Shown piece by piece: positions 17,737 to 64,000 of a stretch of DNA of 64,000 nt. Source of the stretch: Bdellovibrio bacteriovorus HD100 (GTDB lineage: Bacteria > Bdellovibrionota > Bdellovibrionia > Bdellovibrionales > Bdellovibrionaceae); the NCBI RefSeq assembly GCF_000196175.1, contig NC_005363.1, positions 496,001 through 560,000 of the forward strand. The letters are read 5' to 3'. A model generated the notes under the pieces. That model did not search any database. It worked only from the letters and a program-made list of their open reading frames with translations, and was not told the origin of the DNA. The first letter of the stretch is position 1. Every line of letters starts with the position of its first letter. The position numbers and the translations under genes are program-made.

Positions 17737-18351
17737 TTATTTGGTTGGGCTGATTTTGCAGACTTCAACCAGGGTTCTTTCTTTCACTAGTGCGTAGATC
17801 TCTTCGATTTCTTTGTTGGTCACGGCGATGCAGCCCAGTGTCCAGTCATACGGGTGAATCTTGCTGATGCGCTCGTATTTCTGTGGGTTGGAAGGCAAGC
17901 CGTGAATCATGATGTCGCCACCCGGGGAGCGGCCCTGGGATTTTGCATAGGCGATGTCGGCTTTGTTCGGGTAGTCCACATGCAAAGACTTGGTGAACTG
18001 GCTTTTTGGATTTTTGTAATCGATGGAATAGATGCCTTCCGGAGTTTTGCCGTCACCTTCGAATTGTTTGTGACCGATAAAGTTCCAGCCGAAAGCCACC
18101 GTGTAAGTTCTTAGCAAAGTGTCGCCGGAAACCAGATACAACTGGCGTTTGTCTTTGGAAACGACGATGCGTTCGATATTCAAACCTTCGCGCTGGATAC
18201 GTTCTACAGATTCGCGGCTGCGATCCAGCAACTTGTCGATTTGGGTCATGTCATCGCAGTACTTGTAGGAACGGTCCGTGGCTTTAGAACCGGCAAAAGA
18301 CTGCAGGGAAACGAGCGTCAAAGCAATAAGGGGGAAGATGAGTTTTTTCAT
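17737..18351 (-). CDS. L,D-transpeptidase (YkuD family)
   Basis: This enzyme forms or exchanges 3-3 cross-links or attaches ligands to meso-diaminopimelate in peptidoglycan. The 204-residue product has a signal peptide (KKLIFPLIALTLVSLQSFAG). Its YkuD domain carries IMIHGLP (His about residue 150) and DWTLGCIAV with the catalytic Cys about residue 174. The conserved lead-in (RQLYLVSGDTLLRTYTVAFG, then GDGKTPEGIYSI) is also present. The start at 18351 is chosen because it begins the signal peptide; an upstream in-frame extension has none. In Bdellovibrio such enzymes can act on prey or self wall; which applies cannot be told. Confidence 0.92.
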   Translation of the reverse strand: MKKLIFPLIALTLVSLQSFAGSKATDRSYKYCDDMTQIDKLLDRSRESVERIQREGLNIERIVVSKDKRQLYLVSGDTLLRTYTVAFGWNFIGHKQFEGDGKTPEGIYSIDYKNPKSQFTKSLHVDYPNKADIAYAKSQGRSPGGDIMIHGLPSNPQKYERISKIHPYDWTLGCIAVTNKEIEEIYALVKERTLVEVCKISPTK

Positions 18352-28416: not shown

Positions 28417-29934
28417 ATGGAGCTGGTGCGTCTCATGGGTTTCTTGACTGTTCTGAGCCTTGCTTTGAGTGCGAACGCGCAGAATTCAAAGGACTACTTG
28501 GTCGTTGTGGACAGAATTCCGGTAAGTGAACTGCGCTGGGTGATGACACAGTCAGGGGATCATGGAGTCAATGCGAAGAGCTACTGGTCGGATTCAATGG
28601 AGCAAACTTTTTTGGTTGATCCACTCAATCCCACTCTGCGAAATCAGGCGAGCGTTAACTATCTGCGCCTGCTGCAGAATGTTTCCACTGGAATTGTCGA
28701 TCCGGCCCTGGTGGGTGTGGATGTGAAACTGACCAAGAAAAAATTCCCGACAGCCCTGGAGCTCGAGACTGCGTTGGCTGCCGCCGGACAAAATCCCAAT
28801 GTGCTGCTGGAATCAATGTCCCCGCAGTCTCCTCAATATCTGGCGTTGCGCGACAGTCTTCGCAAATTGAACAATGCCTGTGTAAACAACCTGTGGCCAG
28901 CCTTGCCCAAAGTCAAAAAGACTTTGAAGCTGGGGAGTAAAGACGCCATTTTGATTCCTTTAAAAACACGCATGACTCAACTGGGATATCCCATGACCAG
29001 TCTGGACAATGTCTTTGATGACAAAGTGGTGGCGGCGGTGAATGACATTCAGTGGAACCTGCGTTTTAAACCGGACAGCAAAATTTCCCCAGGCGGCAAA
29101 ACTTGGAAGTACCTGAATGTGTCCTGTCAGGATCGTATGCGCCAGATCCGTCTGGATATGGAAAAGCTGCGCTGGTTCCCTCAGCACTTTGAAGACCGCT
29201 ATATCTTTATCAATCTGGCGATGTCCTATTTTAGCCTGGTCGACAAGAGTGGAGGGGGCTTTTATTCAATGAGTTTCCGCACGATCAACGGTCGACCAGA
29301 AAGAAAGTCTCCGACGATGAAAGACAAGATCGTCTACATCGTGATCAATCCATTCTGGGTGGTGCCTCCGACGATCTTCCGCGAAGACAAGGTCGAAGAG
29401 ATCAAGAATTTATGGCCTTGGGAGATCCGCGAATACTTTGATACCCGTCATTATCAGGTTTGGAACAAGTCCTTCACTCAAAGGTTCGATCCGGCCAGTA
29501 TTGACTGGTACAACATGGATCCAAATCAGGATGCCAATATTTATATTCGTCAAAGCCCGCATCGCATGAATGCCCTGGGCTCATTGAAGTTTATGATGAC
29601 CAATTCCTATGCGATCTATCTGCATGATACGAATCAGCGGGAATTGTTCGCCGAGCCTCATCGACTGCTTAGTTCCGGTTGTGTGCGGGTGGAAAAGCCC
29701 GTGGATCTTGCCGAATACCTGCTGAAGGGGACTGAATGGGACCGCGCTGCGATCGAGCGTTATATGGCAAAACCCGGGGAAGTGCTGGATAAAGACACCA
29801 AGGTTCAACTGAAACAGCAGATGCCGGTCTATATGGTGTTCCTGACGTCGCAGCTGAGTTCTGATGGAATTCTGCGCTTTGCCGAGGACTCTTACAGACA
29901 AGGCACCCGTTTGTTAAGACTGGGTGCCTGGTAG
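28417..29934 (+). CDS. L,D-transpeptidase, YcbB/LdtD type with scaffold domain
   Basis: The 505-residue exported protein (signal peptide MELVRLMGFLTVLSLALSANAQ) has the layout of large periplasmic L,D-transpeptidases. It has an N-terminal scaffold part (residues about 25-160), a peptidoglycan-binding helical region (LKTRMTQLGYPMTSLDNVFDDKVVAAVNDIQ, about 182-212), and a catalytic domain from about 255. The catalytic motif is intact: IYLHDTNQRELFAEPHRLLSSGCVRVEKP, with His403 and Cys422. These enzymes make 3-3 cross-links in peptidoglycan. It is the second such enzyme in the window. A strong AGGAGGGG site precedes the ATG. Confidence 0.93.
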   Translation: MELVRLMGFLTVLSLALSANAQNSKDYLVVVDRIPVSELRWVMTQSGDHGVNAKSYWSDSMEQTFLVDPLNPTLRNQASVNYLRLLQNVSTGIVDPALVGVDVKLTKKKFPTALELETALAAAGQNPNVLLESMSPQSPQYLALRDSLRKLNNACVNNLWPALPKVKKTLKLGSKDAILIPLKTRMTQLGYPMTSLDNVFDDKVVAAVNDIQWNLRFKPDSKISPGGKTWKYLNVSCQDRMRQIRLDMEKLRWFPQHFEDRYIFINLAMSYFSLVDKSGGGFYSMSFRTINGRPERKSPTMKDKIVYIVINPFWVVPPTIFREDKVEEIKNLWPWEIREYFDTRHYQVWNKSFTQRFDPASIDWYNMDPNQDANIYIRQSPHRMNALGSLKFMMTNSYAIYLHDTNQRELFAEPHRLLSSGCVRVEKPVDLAEYLLKGTEWDRAAIERYMAKPGEVLDKDTKVQLKQQMPVYMVFLTSQLSSDGILRFAEDSYRQGTRLLRLGAW

Positions 29935-60822: not shown

Positions 60823-61536
60823 ATGAAAATTTTCAGTCAGATTTTGGCTCTTCTTGGGGCCGTTTTGTTGCTCAATGCCTGCGCGGCTTCGAAATCCAGC
60901 GAAGGTTCCGGTTTGACGCCGACCATTTACTACAAACCCACGATTCAGCTGGATAAAAACAAATGCTCTTCGGCTTCGTTGCGTGATCTGCTTTCTCCGG
61001 AGGGGCGCGTCCTGACGACTCTTTGTGATTCTGACTATGCCCAGTGCCTGCTTCAGGGATCGTGCCTGATTGATGACCAGGGCCTGTTGACATCCTACAA
61101 CTATCACTCCACCAAAGATGGACTGGCTCGGTTTATCGTGACCGACACCAAGGCCTGTCCCTTCGGCTATGGCGTAAGCAATGCGTGTCTGGATCCTTAC
61201 TTCTCGGCGGCTGCGGATTTGAAAATCTATAAGCTGGGTGATGTGATTTACATTCCCCGTTTGGTCGGCGCGAAGATGCCCAATGGTGAGGTTCATGATG
61301 GCTACATCGTCATTCGCGACGCTGGCGGCGGAGTCAAAGGGGCTGGCCGCTTTGACTTCTTCACCGGCTACCTGGATCATCGCAATAAGAAAAATACCAT
61401 GGCGCGCCTTGGTTTTGGGGACCCCAAGAACCGCATCGAATATCGTGTGGTCCGCGGTGAAGAAGCGGCCCGTGCGCGCGAGCGCCGAGGTTTCCCAGGA
61501 CTTAAAAAGTCCATTCTGGAAGAGCAGCAAGAATAG
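60823..61536 (+). CDS. 3D-domain lipoprotein (MltA-like fold)
   Basis: The 237-residue product has a lipobox (LLNACAA, Cys20). The C-terminal half carries a 3D domain, named for three conserved Asp: visible as HDGYIVIRDAGGGVKGAGRFDFFTGY (Asp159, 166 and 178). In MltA and Rpf2-type proteins this domain takes part in peptidoglycan glycan cleavage. Additional Cys at 48, 68, 75, 81, 112 and 122 suggest disulphides. An extended -10-like TGCTATAAAT lies 26-36 bases upstream. Whether it acts on self or prey wall is unknown. Confidence 0.82.
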   Translation: MKIFSQILALLGAVLLLNACAASKSSEGSGLTPTIYYKPTIQLDKNKCSSASLRDLLSPEGRVLTTLCDSDYAQCLLQGSCLIDDQGLLTSYNYHSTKDGLARFIVTDTKACPFGYGVSNACLDPYFSAAADLKIYKLGDVIYIPRLVGAKMPNGEVHDGYIVIRDAGGGVKGAGRFDFFTGYLDHRNKKNTMARLGFGDPKNRIEYRVVRGEEAARARERRGFPGLKKSILEEQQE

Positions 61537-61596
61537 CATAAAAGCTCTATTTTTTAGCTGTTGCCAAGGCCCAGAGCCTTTGTTACTTCCAGCTGC

Positions 61597-62634
61597 ATGA
61601 AAAAAATCGCTCTGTTCATTTCAGTTCTTCTGGTATCACTGACAGCCGCGGCAAAGGTTCAGCATCTTCGTTTGGGAACCGGCAAGGTGATTGCCTATGA
61701 GCACATCCAAACCAACAAAGCCTCTTCGACATTGATTTTACTTCCTGGGGTCAATCGCTCCCTCAGCGCCGACGATCGCTCCGTGCAACTGCTGGCAGAG
61801 CAGGGCTGGAATTTGTTGTTGCCGTCACTTCCTGCGCATCCGCTTTCCATTGAGGGGCTTTCCGCGGGTGAAACGCCGTACTTCTTGTATGACTCTTCAC
61901 TTCGCGCAGTGGATTTCGCCTCGGACATTGAAAAGCTTGTCGCGGCTTTGAAAATCAAACAGGCCATTCCGGTGACGTTGTCTTACACGTCAACTGTGGG
62001 TGCTTACTTGAATCCAAAACTTTTTCCGCATGTGATTGAAACAGTGCCGTTGGGCATCCCCACGGAAACAAATCCTGAAGCCGCCCGCAATGCCCAGCTG
62101 TGGGAAAACTGGCTGCGTATGAATCCGGTGATGGCTCCCTTTTGGATTCGTCAGTCCCGCGACCAGGCATACAGCAAACACTGGGGGGCGGTGGTGGATG
62201 CGAACCTTGCCAGGGATCCGGACTATTACGGGGCAAATCCGCGCATCGCGGATATCAAGTCGGGATATGTGACGATTGCCCGGGCCGCCGAGGACTTTGA
62301 TCTGACGAAGGTGGATTATAAGGCGAACGCTGTGACTCGGGACTTTGTTCTGGCGGGTCAGGAAAATTCAGAACGTCTAAAAAATCAGATTGTGGCTTTG
62401 AAGAACTATCTGCGCTCGGGAAAACCCGCGCGTGTGATGGTGGTGGCGAATGCGGGGCATGTGCTGCCGTCGGAGTCTCCGTCAGTGTATGCGGCGGCGA
62501 TCGGGGTGCTGGCGCAGCAGCCTGTGTCTGCGGGAGTGTCGTTCATGGTTGTGCGCAAGGCTGCGGATGTGCACAAAGCCCAGTGGCAGGGGGCTTCGGA
62601 ATTGGAAGCCTGGATGGATGGGATCGTGAAATAG
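61597..62634 (+). CDS. Exported alpha/beta-hydrolase-fold protein
   Basis: The 345-residue protein has a signal peptide (KKIALFISVLLVSLTAAA) and an alpha/beta-hydrolase layout: TLILLPGVNRSLSADDRSVQLLAEQGWNLLLPSLPAHP, then a nucleophile-elbow position PVTLSYTSTVG and a late His in VVANAGHVLPSESP. The elbow lacks the usual GxSxG glycines (TLSYT instead), so catalysis is uncertain. The substrate is unknown. It lies downstream of the 3D-domain gene. The gene following it begins an AT-richer stretch. Confidence 0.75.
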   Translation: MKKIALFISVLLVSLTAAAKVQHLRLGTGKVIAYEHIQTNKASSTLILLPGVNRSLSADDRSVQLLAEQGWNLLLPSLPAHPLSIEGLSAGETPYFLYDSSLRAVDFASDIEKLVAALKIKQAIPVTLSYTSTVGAYLNPKLFPHVIETVPLGIPTETNPEAARNAQLWENWLRMNPVMAPFWIRQSRDQAYSKHWGAVVDANLARDPDYYGANPRIADIKSGYVTIARAAEDFDLTKVDYKANAVTRDFVLAGQENSERLKNQIVALKNYLRSGKPARVMVVANAGHVLPSESPSVYAAAIGVLAQQPVSAGVSFMVVRKAADVHKAQWQGASELEAWMDGIVK

Positions 62635-62727
62635 CGGCTTTAAATGTCGCTGTGTCAAAGTGATACACAGTTTATTCTGCTGAAATCGTTTATATTGCAT
62701 TTTGACTAGCATCGAAATTGCTGAATG

Positions 62728-62750: not shown

Positions 62751-63683
62751 ATGCGTTTTCTTTGGTCGGCTACAATGCTTTCAGTTTCCTTGATGCTGTT
62801 TGCGCCGGCTATTTTTGCTACGCAATCGCACAAAGATCAGGCTTATTTGTATCTTCAAAATATTTATTCTCGCGACAATGTAAGCAAATTGCATGTCCTG
62901 AGTTTACAGCAAAGGTTAGAGTACTTCTCCCGCATTTTCCTAGGAAAACCTTACCTTGGGGGAGCCCTCGGTGAGGGGGCAAATTCCGCATATGATAATG
63001 ATCCTCTATACAGATTTGATGCGTTTGATTGTACTACTTATGTGGAAACAGTTGCCGCCCTGACCTTGTCTTATGGTGAAGCAGAATTTCAAAAGAATAT
63101 GAATGTGATCCGGTACCAAGATGGAGTGGTGAGTCTTATTACTCGTAATCACTTTACCAGCGTAGATTGGAATCCTAATGTTGAAAAATTGGGAATTCTT
63201 AGAGACGTGACTGCTGAAATTGGTTTGGCTGATGTCTCCACTTTGCAGACCCTGATTGACAAGAAGGAATGGTATAAAAAGCAAGCTTCGGCAATGGTAA
63301 AAGTTAAGGACAATGAGGCAAAAAAGGTTGGTGGCATCATCGCTCGAACTCAGGCAATTCGTCCCCAGATCTCAGCACTTAACTTTCTAAGCAAGGAGAT
63401 TCTAACTGCAAAGCCCGACCTTCTCCTTCGATTTCCCAAGGCTGGGATAGTTAATATTGTCAGAAAAAACTGGAATGTTAGAGATGCTATAGGTACGAAC
63501 TTGGACGTTTCCCACCAAGGTATTATTTTTGAGAGAGATGGAGAAATTATTTTCCGTCACGCTAGTTATAAAAAGAGCTCTCAATATGTTGTTGAAGTTC
63601 CGCTACTCGAATATGTGAAAAAGAACTTTGGTGATCAAACATTCGCAGGGCTGAATGTTCTTTCATTTGTGGGCGGCCTTTGA
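62751..63683 (+). CDS. Exported DUF1460 amidase-like protein (NlpC/P60-related)
   Basis: The 310-residue protein has a signal peptide (RFLWSATMLSVSLMLFAPAIFA). It belongs to DUF1460, whose known structures are NlpC/P60-like cysteine peptidases acting on peptidoglycan fragments. The catalytic Cys is in FDCTTYVETVAAL (Cys93) and a His is in RNHFTSVDWNP (His134). A later SHQGIIFERDGE fits the third part of the fold. It overlaps by one base with a downstream ankyrin lipoprotein (TGATG), so the two are coupled. The region is visibly richer in A and T than the genes before it. Confidence 0.85.
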   Translation: MRFLWSATMLSVSLMLFAPAIFATQSHKDQAYLYLQNIYSRDNVSKLHVLSLQQRLEYFSRIFLGKPYLGGALGEGANSAYDNDPLYRFDAFDCTTYVETVAALTLSYGEAEFQKNMNVIRYQDGVVSLITRNHFTSVDWNPNVEKLGILRDVTAEIGLADVSTLQTLIDKKEWYKKQASAMVKVKDNEAKKVGGIIARTQAIRPQISALNFLSKEILTAKPDLLLRFPKAGIVNIVRKNWNVRDAIGTNLDVSHQGIIFERDGEIIFRHASYKKSSQYVVEVPLLEYVKKNFGDQTFAGLNVLSFVGGL

Positions 63684-64000
63684 TGGAATTTTCTGCGCGC
63701 TTAATCACTACCACTTTTCTCTCTCTGGCAATATTTGGCTGCGGATTTAAGAAGGATGTTCCTGGCTTAGTTGAGAAAAATGTTAGAGAAACCTCGCTTT
63801 TGAATCAACGTCTCGGGAGTGAAGACGCGTTAAAGCGTGCCGTCGCAGATGGGGATCTGGTCGATATAAGAAGAATTATCGAGCAGAATCCAAGTATTCA
63901 GCTAAACCAAGAGATTAGCGAAGAGACGGTTCTATCAGTAGCTTTACGGCGAGGGGATTTCGAAGTTGTAGCGTTACTTATGAGTTATGGTGCATCTCCT
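63683..64000 (+). CDS. Ankyrin-repeat lipoprotein (3' partial)
   Basis: The frame is open to the window end and gives 106 residues. It has a signal peptide and lipobox (LSLAIFGCGF, Cys20), then ankyrin-type helices: EDALKRAVADGDLVDIRRIIEQNPS, then ETVLSVALRRGDFEVVALLMSYGASP. Ankyrin repeats bind proteins. A membrane-anchored ankyrin protein coupled to a wall amidase suggests binding or restraint of that enzyme; in B. bacteriovorus the ankyrin protein Bd3460 protects the predator from its own endopeptidases. Here that role is inference. The rest of the gene lies beyond the window. Confidence 0.85.
   Translation, partial: MEFSARLITTTFLSLAIFGCGFKKDVPGLVEKNVRETSLLNQRLGSEDALKRAVADGDLVDIRRIIEQNPSIQLNQEISEETVLSVALRRGDFEVVALLMSYGASP

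Follow-up and report, generated by a model that had tools for sequence, protein, structure and literature searches.

So far as is known, only one dedicated inhibitor shields a predator from its own wall enzymes, namely Bd3460. In Bdellovibrio bacteriovorus this protein binds and inhibits the DacB enzymes Bd3459 and Bd0816 and serves in self-protection (PMC4686830). Lambert et al. 2015 also put forward ankyrin genes as pointers to further enzyme pairs, naming Bd1180/Bd1181 (PMC4686830). At the locus described here the enzyme belongs to another class, as it is a DUF1460 amidase and not a DacB endopeptidase. The best-studied DUF1460 enzyme is reportedly an amidase specific for soluble anhydro-muropeptides (Xu et al. 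2014). Action of DUF1460 enzymes on such soluble fragments finds partial support in PMC8586454 and PMC10318531, and their catalytic residues are a Cys-His-His set (PMC10318531).

The window, that is the whole 64,000-nucleotide stretch of HD100 DNA that was analysed, ends within a unit of three genes, consisting of the DUF1460 gene and two lipoprotein genes referred to as B and C (Table 1). This unit is real, compact and horizontally exchanged. The first-pass annotation had described an exported DUF1460 enzyme that overlaps by one base with a lipobox protein of ankyrin repeats, and this arrangement holds, with the caveat that the ankyrin call is sub-threshold for B alone; the amidase TGA (63681-63683) and the ATG of B (63683-63685) have one base in common (TGATG). 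Extension past 64000, which the same annotation had proposed, completes B at 64717 as a protein of 344 amino acids and brings in the second lipoprotein gene, C, which starts at 64718, directly after the stop of B (L007:4717), in a zero-base junction. The tags Bd0600 (hydrolase), Bd0601 (DUF1460), Bd0602 (B) and Bd0603 (C) were assigned by counting between Bd0599 and the flagellin gene, which has been reported as Bd0604; no mention of Bd0601-Bd0603 was found in the literature searched.

Table 1. Features of the HD100 locus (positions in the window unless stated) and exported neighbours of related ankyrin lipoproteins (ANKL)
Feature	Position or genome	Strand	Size and evidence
3D-domain lipoprotein matching published Bd0599	60823..61536	+	237 aa; PF06725 29.7 bits; outside exchanged block
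Alpha/beta hydrolase (Bd0600 by counting)	61561..62634	+	345 aa from inner ATG; Abhydrolase_6 29 bits
Exchanged block (leader, DUF1460, B, C)	62677..~65671 (past window end 64000)	+	blastn, GC
Exported DUF1460 / AmiA-like NlpC/P60-fold amidase (Bd0601 by counting)	62751..63683	+	310 aa; PF07313, 2IM9, alignment
Gene B (Bd0602 by counting), ANKL-family ankyrin lipoprotein	63683..64717 (window ends 64000)	+	344 aa
Gene C (Bd0603 by counting), ANKL-family second lipoprotein	64718..65668 (L007:4718-5668), past window		316 aa
ANKL neighbour: DUF1460	HD100, this locus		
ANKL neighbours: YkuD L,D-transpeptidase and 544-aa exported protein	HD100 L101, 1.12 Mb	same orientation	
ANKL neighbour: YkuD	G011 L110		4-bp overlap
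ANKL neighbours: S13 (DacB-type) peptidase with Bd3460-like ankyrin protein	G010, G023		
ANKL neighbour, second position: SLT lytic transglycosylase	G014		
ANKL neighbour: APP1 phosphatase	four genomes		
ANKL neighbour: exported protein X, without assigned role	six genomes		

The amidase matches PF07313 with 204.1 bits (E=2.1e-60; cut-off 27), which places it in DUF1460, and its nearest solved structure is 2IM9 (E=4e-46). Alignment with a Bacteroides chain shows the Cys-His-His set to be intact, as Cys94 (DAFDCTT), His255 (DVSHQG) and His270 (FRHAS). Translation is taken to start at the ATG at 62751, the mechanical open reading frame beginning at a TTG at 62718, and the N-terminus is by inspection a Sec-type signal peptide; beyond this signal the amidase has one catalytic domain only, and there are no toxin-delivery domains. 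A structure model of the DUF1460 protein built from seven sequences was set aside (mean pLDDT 55). Two further wall-enzyme domains are encountered in the window, both YkuD L,D-transpeptidase domains (17761-18171 on the minus strand and 29194-29733 on the plus strand), out of 14 genome-wide.

Both B and C possess a lipobox, that of B being IFGC followed by GF, with Gly at the residue (+2) after the lipid Cys, and that of C being slightly atypical (CVGC). The ankyrin-like part of B comprises only about 65-75 residues with about two recognisable repeats, roughly a fifth of the protein, and the remainder is without an assigned fold. Against Pfam Ank_2, B alone scores 16.8 bits (cut-off 27.3), and a structure model of moderate quality places helix pairs at residues 80-90 and 93-103. 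Foldseek searches with the 106-residue start of B return ankyrin proteins as best matches, none with E<0.001, and are supportive only. A profile of the wider family matches ankyrins in the PDB with E values down to 2e-40 at positions ~40-112. From profile and model, the ankyrin assignment of B is firm only at the level of the family.

This family, here named ANKL, is defined as ankyrin lipoproteins with a lipobox that includes CxFxK, about two ankyrin repeats and an arrangement as tandem pairs, and it includes B and C. In an alignment of 15 members the lipobox region CxFxK is invariant, and a RGxxEV...GASPF motif is also present. The profile scores B at 293 bits and C at 229 bits, both being among its own 15 rows; independent support comes from a search with the B sequence alone, which recovers other ANKL copies with E values down to 1.7e-9. 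ANKL matches occur in 20 of the 24 Bdellovibrio genomes searched (at least one in each, some weak), with up to eleven in a genome, and the strong matches are usually overlapping tandem lipoprotein pairs. A relationship of B to Bd3460 was considered and rejected at the pairwise level (BLASTP 16 bits, E 0.77), and Bd3460 scores only 23 bits against the ANKL profile, as ankyrin repeats alone would give. Large lipoproteins of 640-830 amino acids, most with an ANKL-like start, were seen at L087, L089, L082, L083 and L120, those at L087 and L089 lying directly after a response-regulator-like gene.

The DUF1460 gene and its two lipoprotein genes differ from their surroundings in origin. DNA homology to the loci of the two closest relatives, G005 and G008, stops in blastn comparisons at 62676 (L007:2676) and resumes at 65672 (L007:5672), four bases past the stop of C. 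The GC content of DUF1460, B and C is 0.40-0.42 against 0.53-0.55 in the flanking genes; among 268 control genes of HD100 the mean is 0.506 (sd 0.028), and about 1% of genes are at or below 0.42. In the same slot, G005 and G008 carry a DUF1460 allele that is 37-38% identical to that of HD100, and the hydrolase, which lies outside the block, is 86-89% identical in both. The DUF1460 tree groups HD100 with G004, G007, G011 and G016 (support 1.0) and not with G005 and G008, in conflict with the flagellin tree, wherein HD100 groups with G005 and G008 (support 0.999). The whole cassette has been swapped by allelic exchange: between the genes for the hydrolase and the flagellin, and within flanks that remain almost identical, it took the place of a quite different DUF1460 allele. 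The low GC of the block suggests that HD100 was the recipient. A simpler scenario, in which only B and C were inserted and the rest of the locus stayed as it was, is rejected, as the DUF1460 allele was exchanged as well and is also low in GC.

A DUF1460-ankyrin pair conserved in relatives, on which the first-pass annotation had staked its proposal, is not found. Of the 24 Bdellovibrio genomes, 11 have DUF1460 as a single copy, as do four further genomes of the order, and in none of the 14 carriers other than HD100 does an ankyrin lipoprotein adjoin it. In the ten other Bdellovibrio carriers the gene lies ahead of the same flagellin gene and, as in the four more distant carriers, has no ankyrin-like neighbour. 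The pairing is specific to the HD100 lineage within the sampled genomes. Among the carriers without an adjacent ANKL gene are the four that have the DUF1460 lineage of HD100 (G004, G007, G011 and G016), which indicates that cells tolerate the enzyme even where no partner gene adjoins it. In G016 a 510-aa gene, subtilase-like by motif (L062:2401-3966), lies between DUF1460 and flagellin, so that the slot carries different genes in different species. In the close relative G009, C is reduced to its final 63 residues, at 75% identity and beside the same flagellin gene, from which it follows that C was formerly present there; this remnant (L046:4447-4761) is joined to another signal-peptide start, and adjoining small unrelated genes have replaced the rest of the locus.

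Elsewhere in the genus, ANKL genes adjoin genes for a variety of exported proteins, read in the same orientation (Table 1), with overlaps of 1 to 4 bp at several loci indicating tight coupling. Of 14 distinct neighbours, 5 are peptidoglycan enzymes, whereas the exported controls include about 4 in 83 (p=0.003 by Fisher's test), a background that may be slightly low, one control list having held the best 25 of 47 families. The controls were exported proteins from 400 kb of HD100 sequence, scored by Pfam. The strictest count, in which the second-position SLT enzyme is dropped and the background raised, gives 4/14 versus 6/83 (p=0.035). This excess is suggestive, the test having been designed post hoc on 14 neighbours. 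A 547-aa neighbour in G009, which is divergent and polysaccharide deacetylase-like by motif only, was left out of the count. Two other observations concern the neighbours themselves. The 544-aa exported protein encoded before the other HD100 ANKL pair (L101:5043-6677) contains a possible papain-type motif (DCADLPYY ... GHVAII ... DSHPDN), with a Pfam CHAP score of only 14.6 bits, and in G023 and G010 (L111:5189-9834, L107) an ANKL pair lies directly before the DacB-type S13 and Bd3460-like ankyrin genes, an arrangement that is duplicated in G010.

Exchange is not confined to the DUF1460 slot. Among close relatives, ANKL genes lie within swapped cassettes together with an adjoining exported gene at three loci. 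At the two loci other than the DUF1460 slot, divergence affects the ANKL genes jointly with the neighbouring exported gene, between outer flanks that are 95-98% identical. At the X locus, the X proteins of HD100 and of G005/G008 start identical and end similar, but identity in the middle drops to about 30%; only G005 and G008 have the ANKL pair there, which is absent from HD100 (L068:5165-6538, 3.257 Mb; compare L047 and L048). A move of the HD100 ANKL pair from the X locus to the DUF1460 slot is unsupported, as the identity of B and C to the copies at the X locus amounts to only about 20%. Around the cassette at 1.12 Mb, HD100 and G008 share 95-97% identity, as opposed to 62% and 35% for the ANKL proteins and 75% for YkuD; synonymous divergence here is high or saturated, in keeping with import. 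Between HD100 and G005, YkuD at the same locus is 97% identical and the ANKL genes 77-81%, so exchange does not always involve the complete unit.

The reading that we favour, with a probability of about 0.45, is that the three-gene cassette was imported whole and that B and C are co-inherited partners that bind or restrain the enzyme. Amidase, B and C are co-encoded, and recombination would have brought them into the HD100 lineage as a single piece. Since Asp does not follow their lipid Cys, B and C would after Sec export be anchored in the outer membrane, facing the periplasm. With the ankyrin portion and a variable C-terminal portion they are predicted to bind the co-encoded enzyme, which would thereby be held or restrained before its action on prey wall material or fragments thereof. 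The recurrent tight linkage and the joint exchange argue that ANKL lipoproteins are functionally connected to the exported protein encoded beside them, and the lipoproteins may be regarded as candidate partners or restrainers of adjacent exported wall enzymes. The enzyme-ankyrin partnership that the first-pass annotation had suggested fails as a conserved DUF1460 pair and gains support in its broader, family-level form (enrichment p=0.003/0.035; three exchanged loci); as to its being an undescribed system, ankyrin-enzyme pairs had already been proposed by Lambert et al. 2015 (PMC4686830), while the family-level ANKL pattern was not found described in the literature searched.

Several of the same observations bear on whether B and C act on the amidase at all. 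They may be periplasmic or surface lipoproteins that exchange fast and independently and come to lie beside exported genes as recombination at such loci takes neighbours along, an explanation that is somewhat doubtful. ANKL genes adjoin proteins not known to act on the wall (protein X, APP1 phosphatase) and exported proteins without an assigned role, DUF1460 occurs elsewhere without ANKL, and the unequal identities of ANKL and YkuD at L101 between HD100 and G005 point the same way. One ANKL subfamily has differing neighbours in HD100, G009, G010 and G023, and the occurrence of the same subfamily beside different enzymes in different species speaks against a strict one-to-one pairing. Hitch-hiking alone, however, would lead one to expect neither the 1- to 4-bp overlaps at several loci nor the excess of peptidoglycan enzymes among the neighbours.

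The amidase might alternatively be teamed with Bd0599, one enzyme freeing anhydro-muropeptides from the prey wall and the other splitting them for uptake, with B and C incidental. Bd0599 is an MltA-like lytic transglycosylase that is induced 15-30 min into predation and whose deletion is without phenotype (PMC10127604); this timing favours such a team, and its products could be processed by the amidase encoded two genes further along, in agreement with the class of substrate known for DUF1460 enzymes. Seven genomes have a 3D-domain gene in the vicinity of DUF1460 (HD100, G004, G005, G007, G008, G020 and G021) but was not found near it in G016, G019, G023 and G053, where contig ends limit some of the comparisons. 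We consider this explanation rather doubtful. It leaves B and C unexplained, and it is a partial rival only, being compatible with restraint of the enzyme by B and C. The probabilities attached to the several readings overlap in part.

Under the favoured reading, restraint or self-protection by B and C is possible. The self-lysis argument is weak for DUF1460, because the characterised enzyme is said to act on soluble anhydro-muropeptides, and this preference makes anchoring or timing control at least as plausible as immunity. A strict effector-immunity system, in which the amidase would damage peptidoglycan and B and/or C would protect the predator, is the strongest special case of the favoured reading and quite improbable: the Bd3460 precedent with its structure and phenotype (PMC4686830), the ankyrin immunity proteins of polymorphic toxin systems (PMC3482391) and a cassette exchange that resembles toxin-immunity polymorphism are set against the specificity for soluble substrates just mentioned, the relatives that retain DUF1460 without an adjacent ANKL gene, and B itself, which has no detectable pairwise similarity to Bd3460 and only about two recognisable repeats.

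If ANKL genes are linked to at least five kinds of exported protein and exchanged with them, they provide a list of candidate enzyme-partner pairs, and cassette swapping would then be a likely way in which the wall toolkit of the predator evolves. A wider proposal, which we hold to be rather improbable, is that there exists a repertoire of exchangeable cassettes, each combining an exported wall enzyme with one or two ankyrin lipoproteins of the outer membrane as its specific restrainers, swapped between strains at fixed chromosomal slots, with DUF1460-B-C as one member. Every predator would in this way possess wall enzymes and fitting restrainers of its own.

Among known systems, the amidase is like Bacteroides uniformis AmiA (4Q5K; related 4H4J and 4Q68) in its PF07313 domain and in the alignment of the catalytic Cys and both His residues; it is longer than the Bacteroides enzyme, like Legionella 2IM9, which has Gln at the third catalytic position where the HD100 amidase has His. 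Polymorphic toxin systems with Imm-ank (PMC3482391) have in common with the HD100 unit an adjacent ankyrin protein and exchangeable cassettes; here, however, the amidase is without toxin-delivery domains and without known toxicity, and the immunity candidates are lipoproteins. A close parallel is Bd3459/Bd0816-Bd3460, where, in the same organism, the gene for an exported ankyrin protein likewise comes immediately downstream of one for an exported peptidoglycan enzyme. Unlike Bd3460, B and C are tandem lipoproteins with about two recognisable repeats and a C-terminal part without an assigned fold, and their synteny with the enzyme is not kept in the 14 other DUF1460 genomes; Bd3460 binds and inhibits its enzymes, and B and C are putative binders or restrainers of theirs. 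Another parallel is Bd1180-Bd1181, a predicted pair of an ankyrin protein and an L,D-transpeptidase (PMC4686830). No link between B/C and Bd1180 was found in the literature searched. Given the matching gene types, the HD100 locus at 1.12 Mb (L101) is most likely that of Bd1180/Bd1181, and although the enzyme beside B and C differs (DUF1460, not YkuD), the ANKL pair that lies there directly before YkuD belongs to the same family as B and C.
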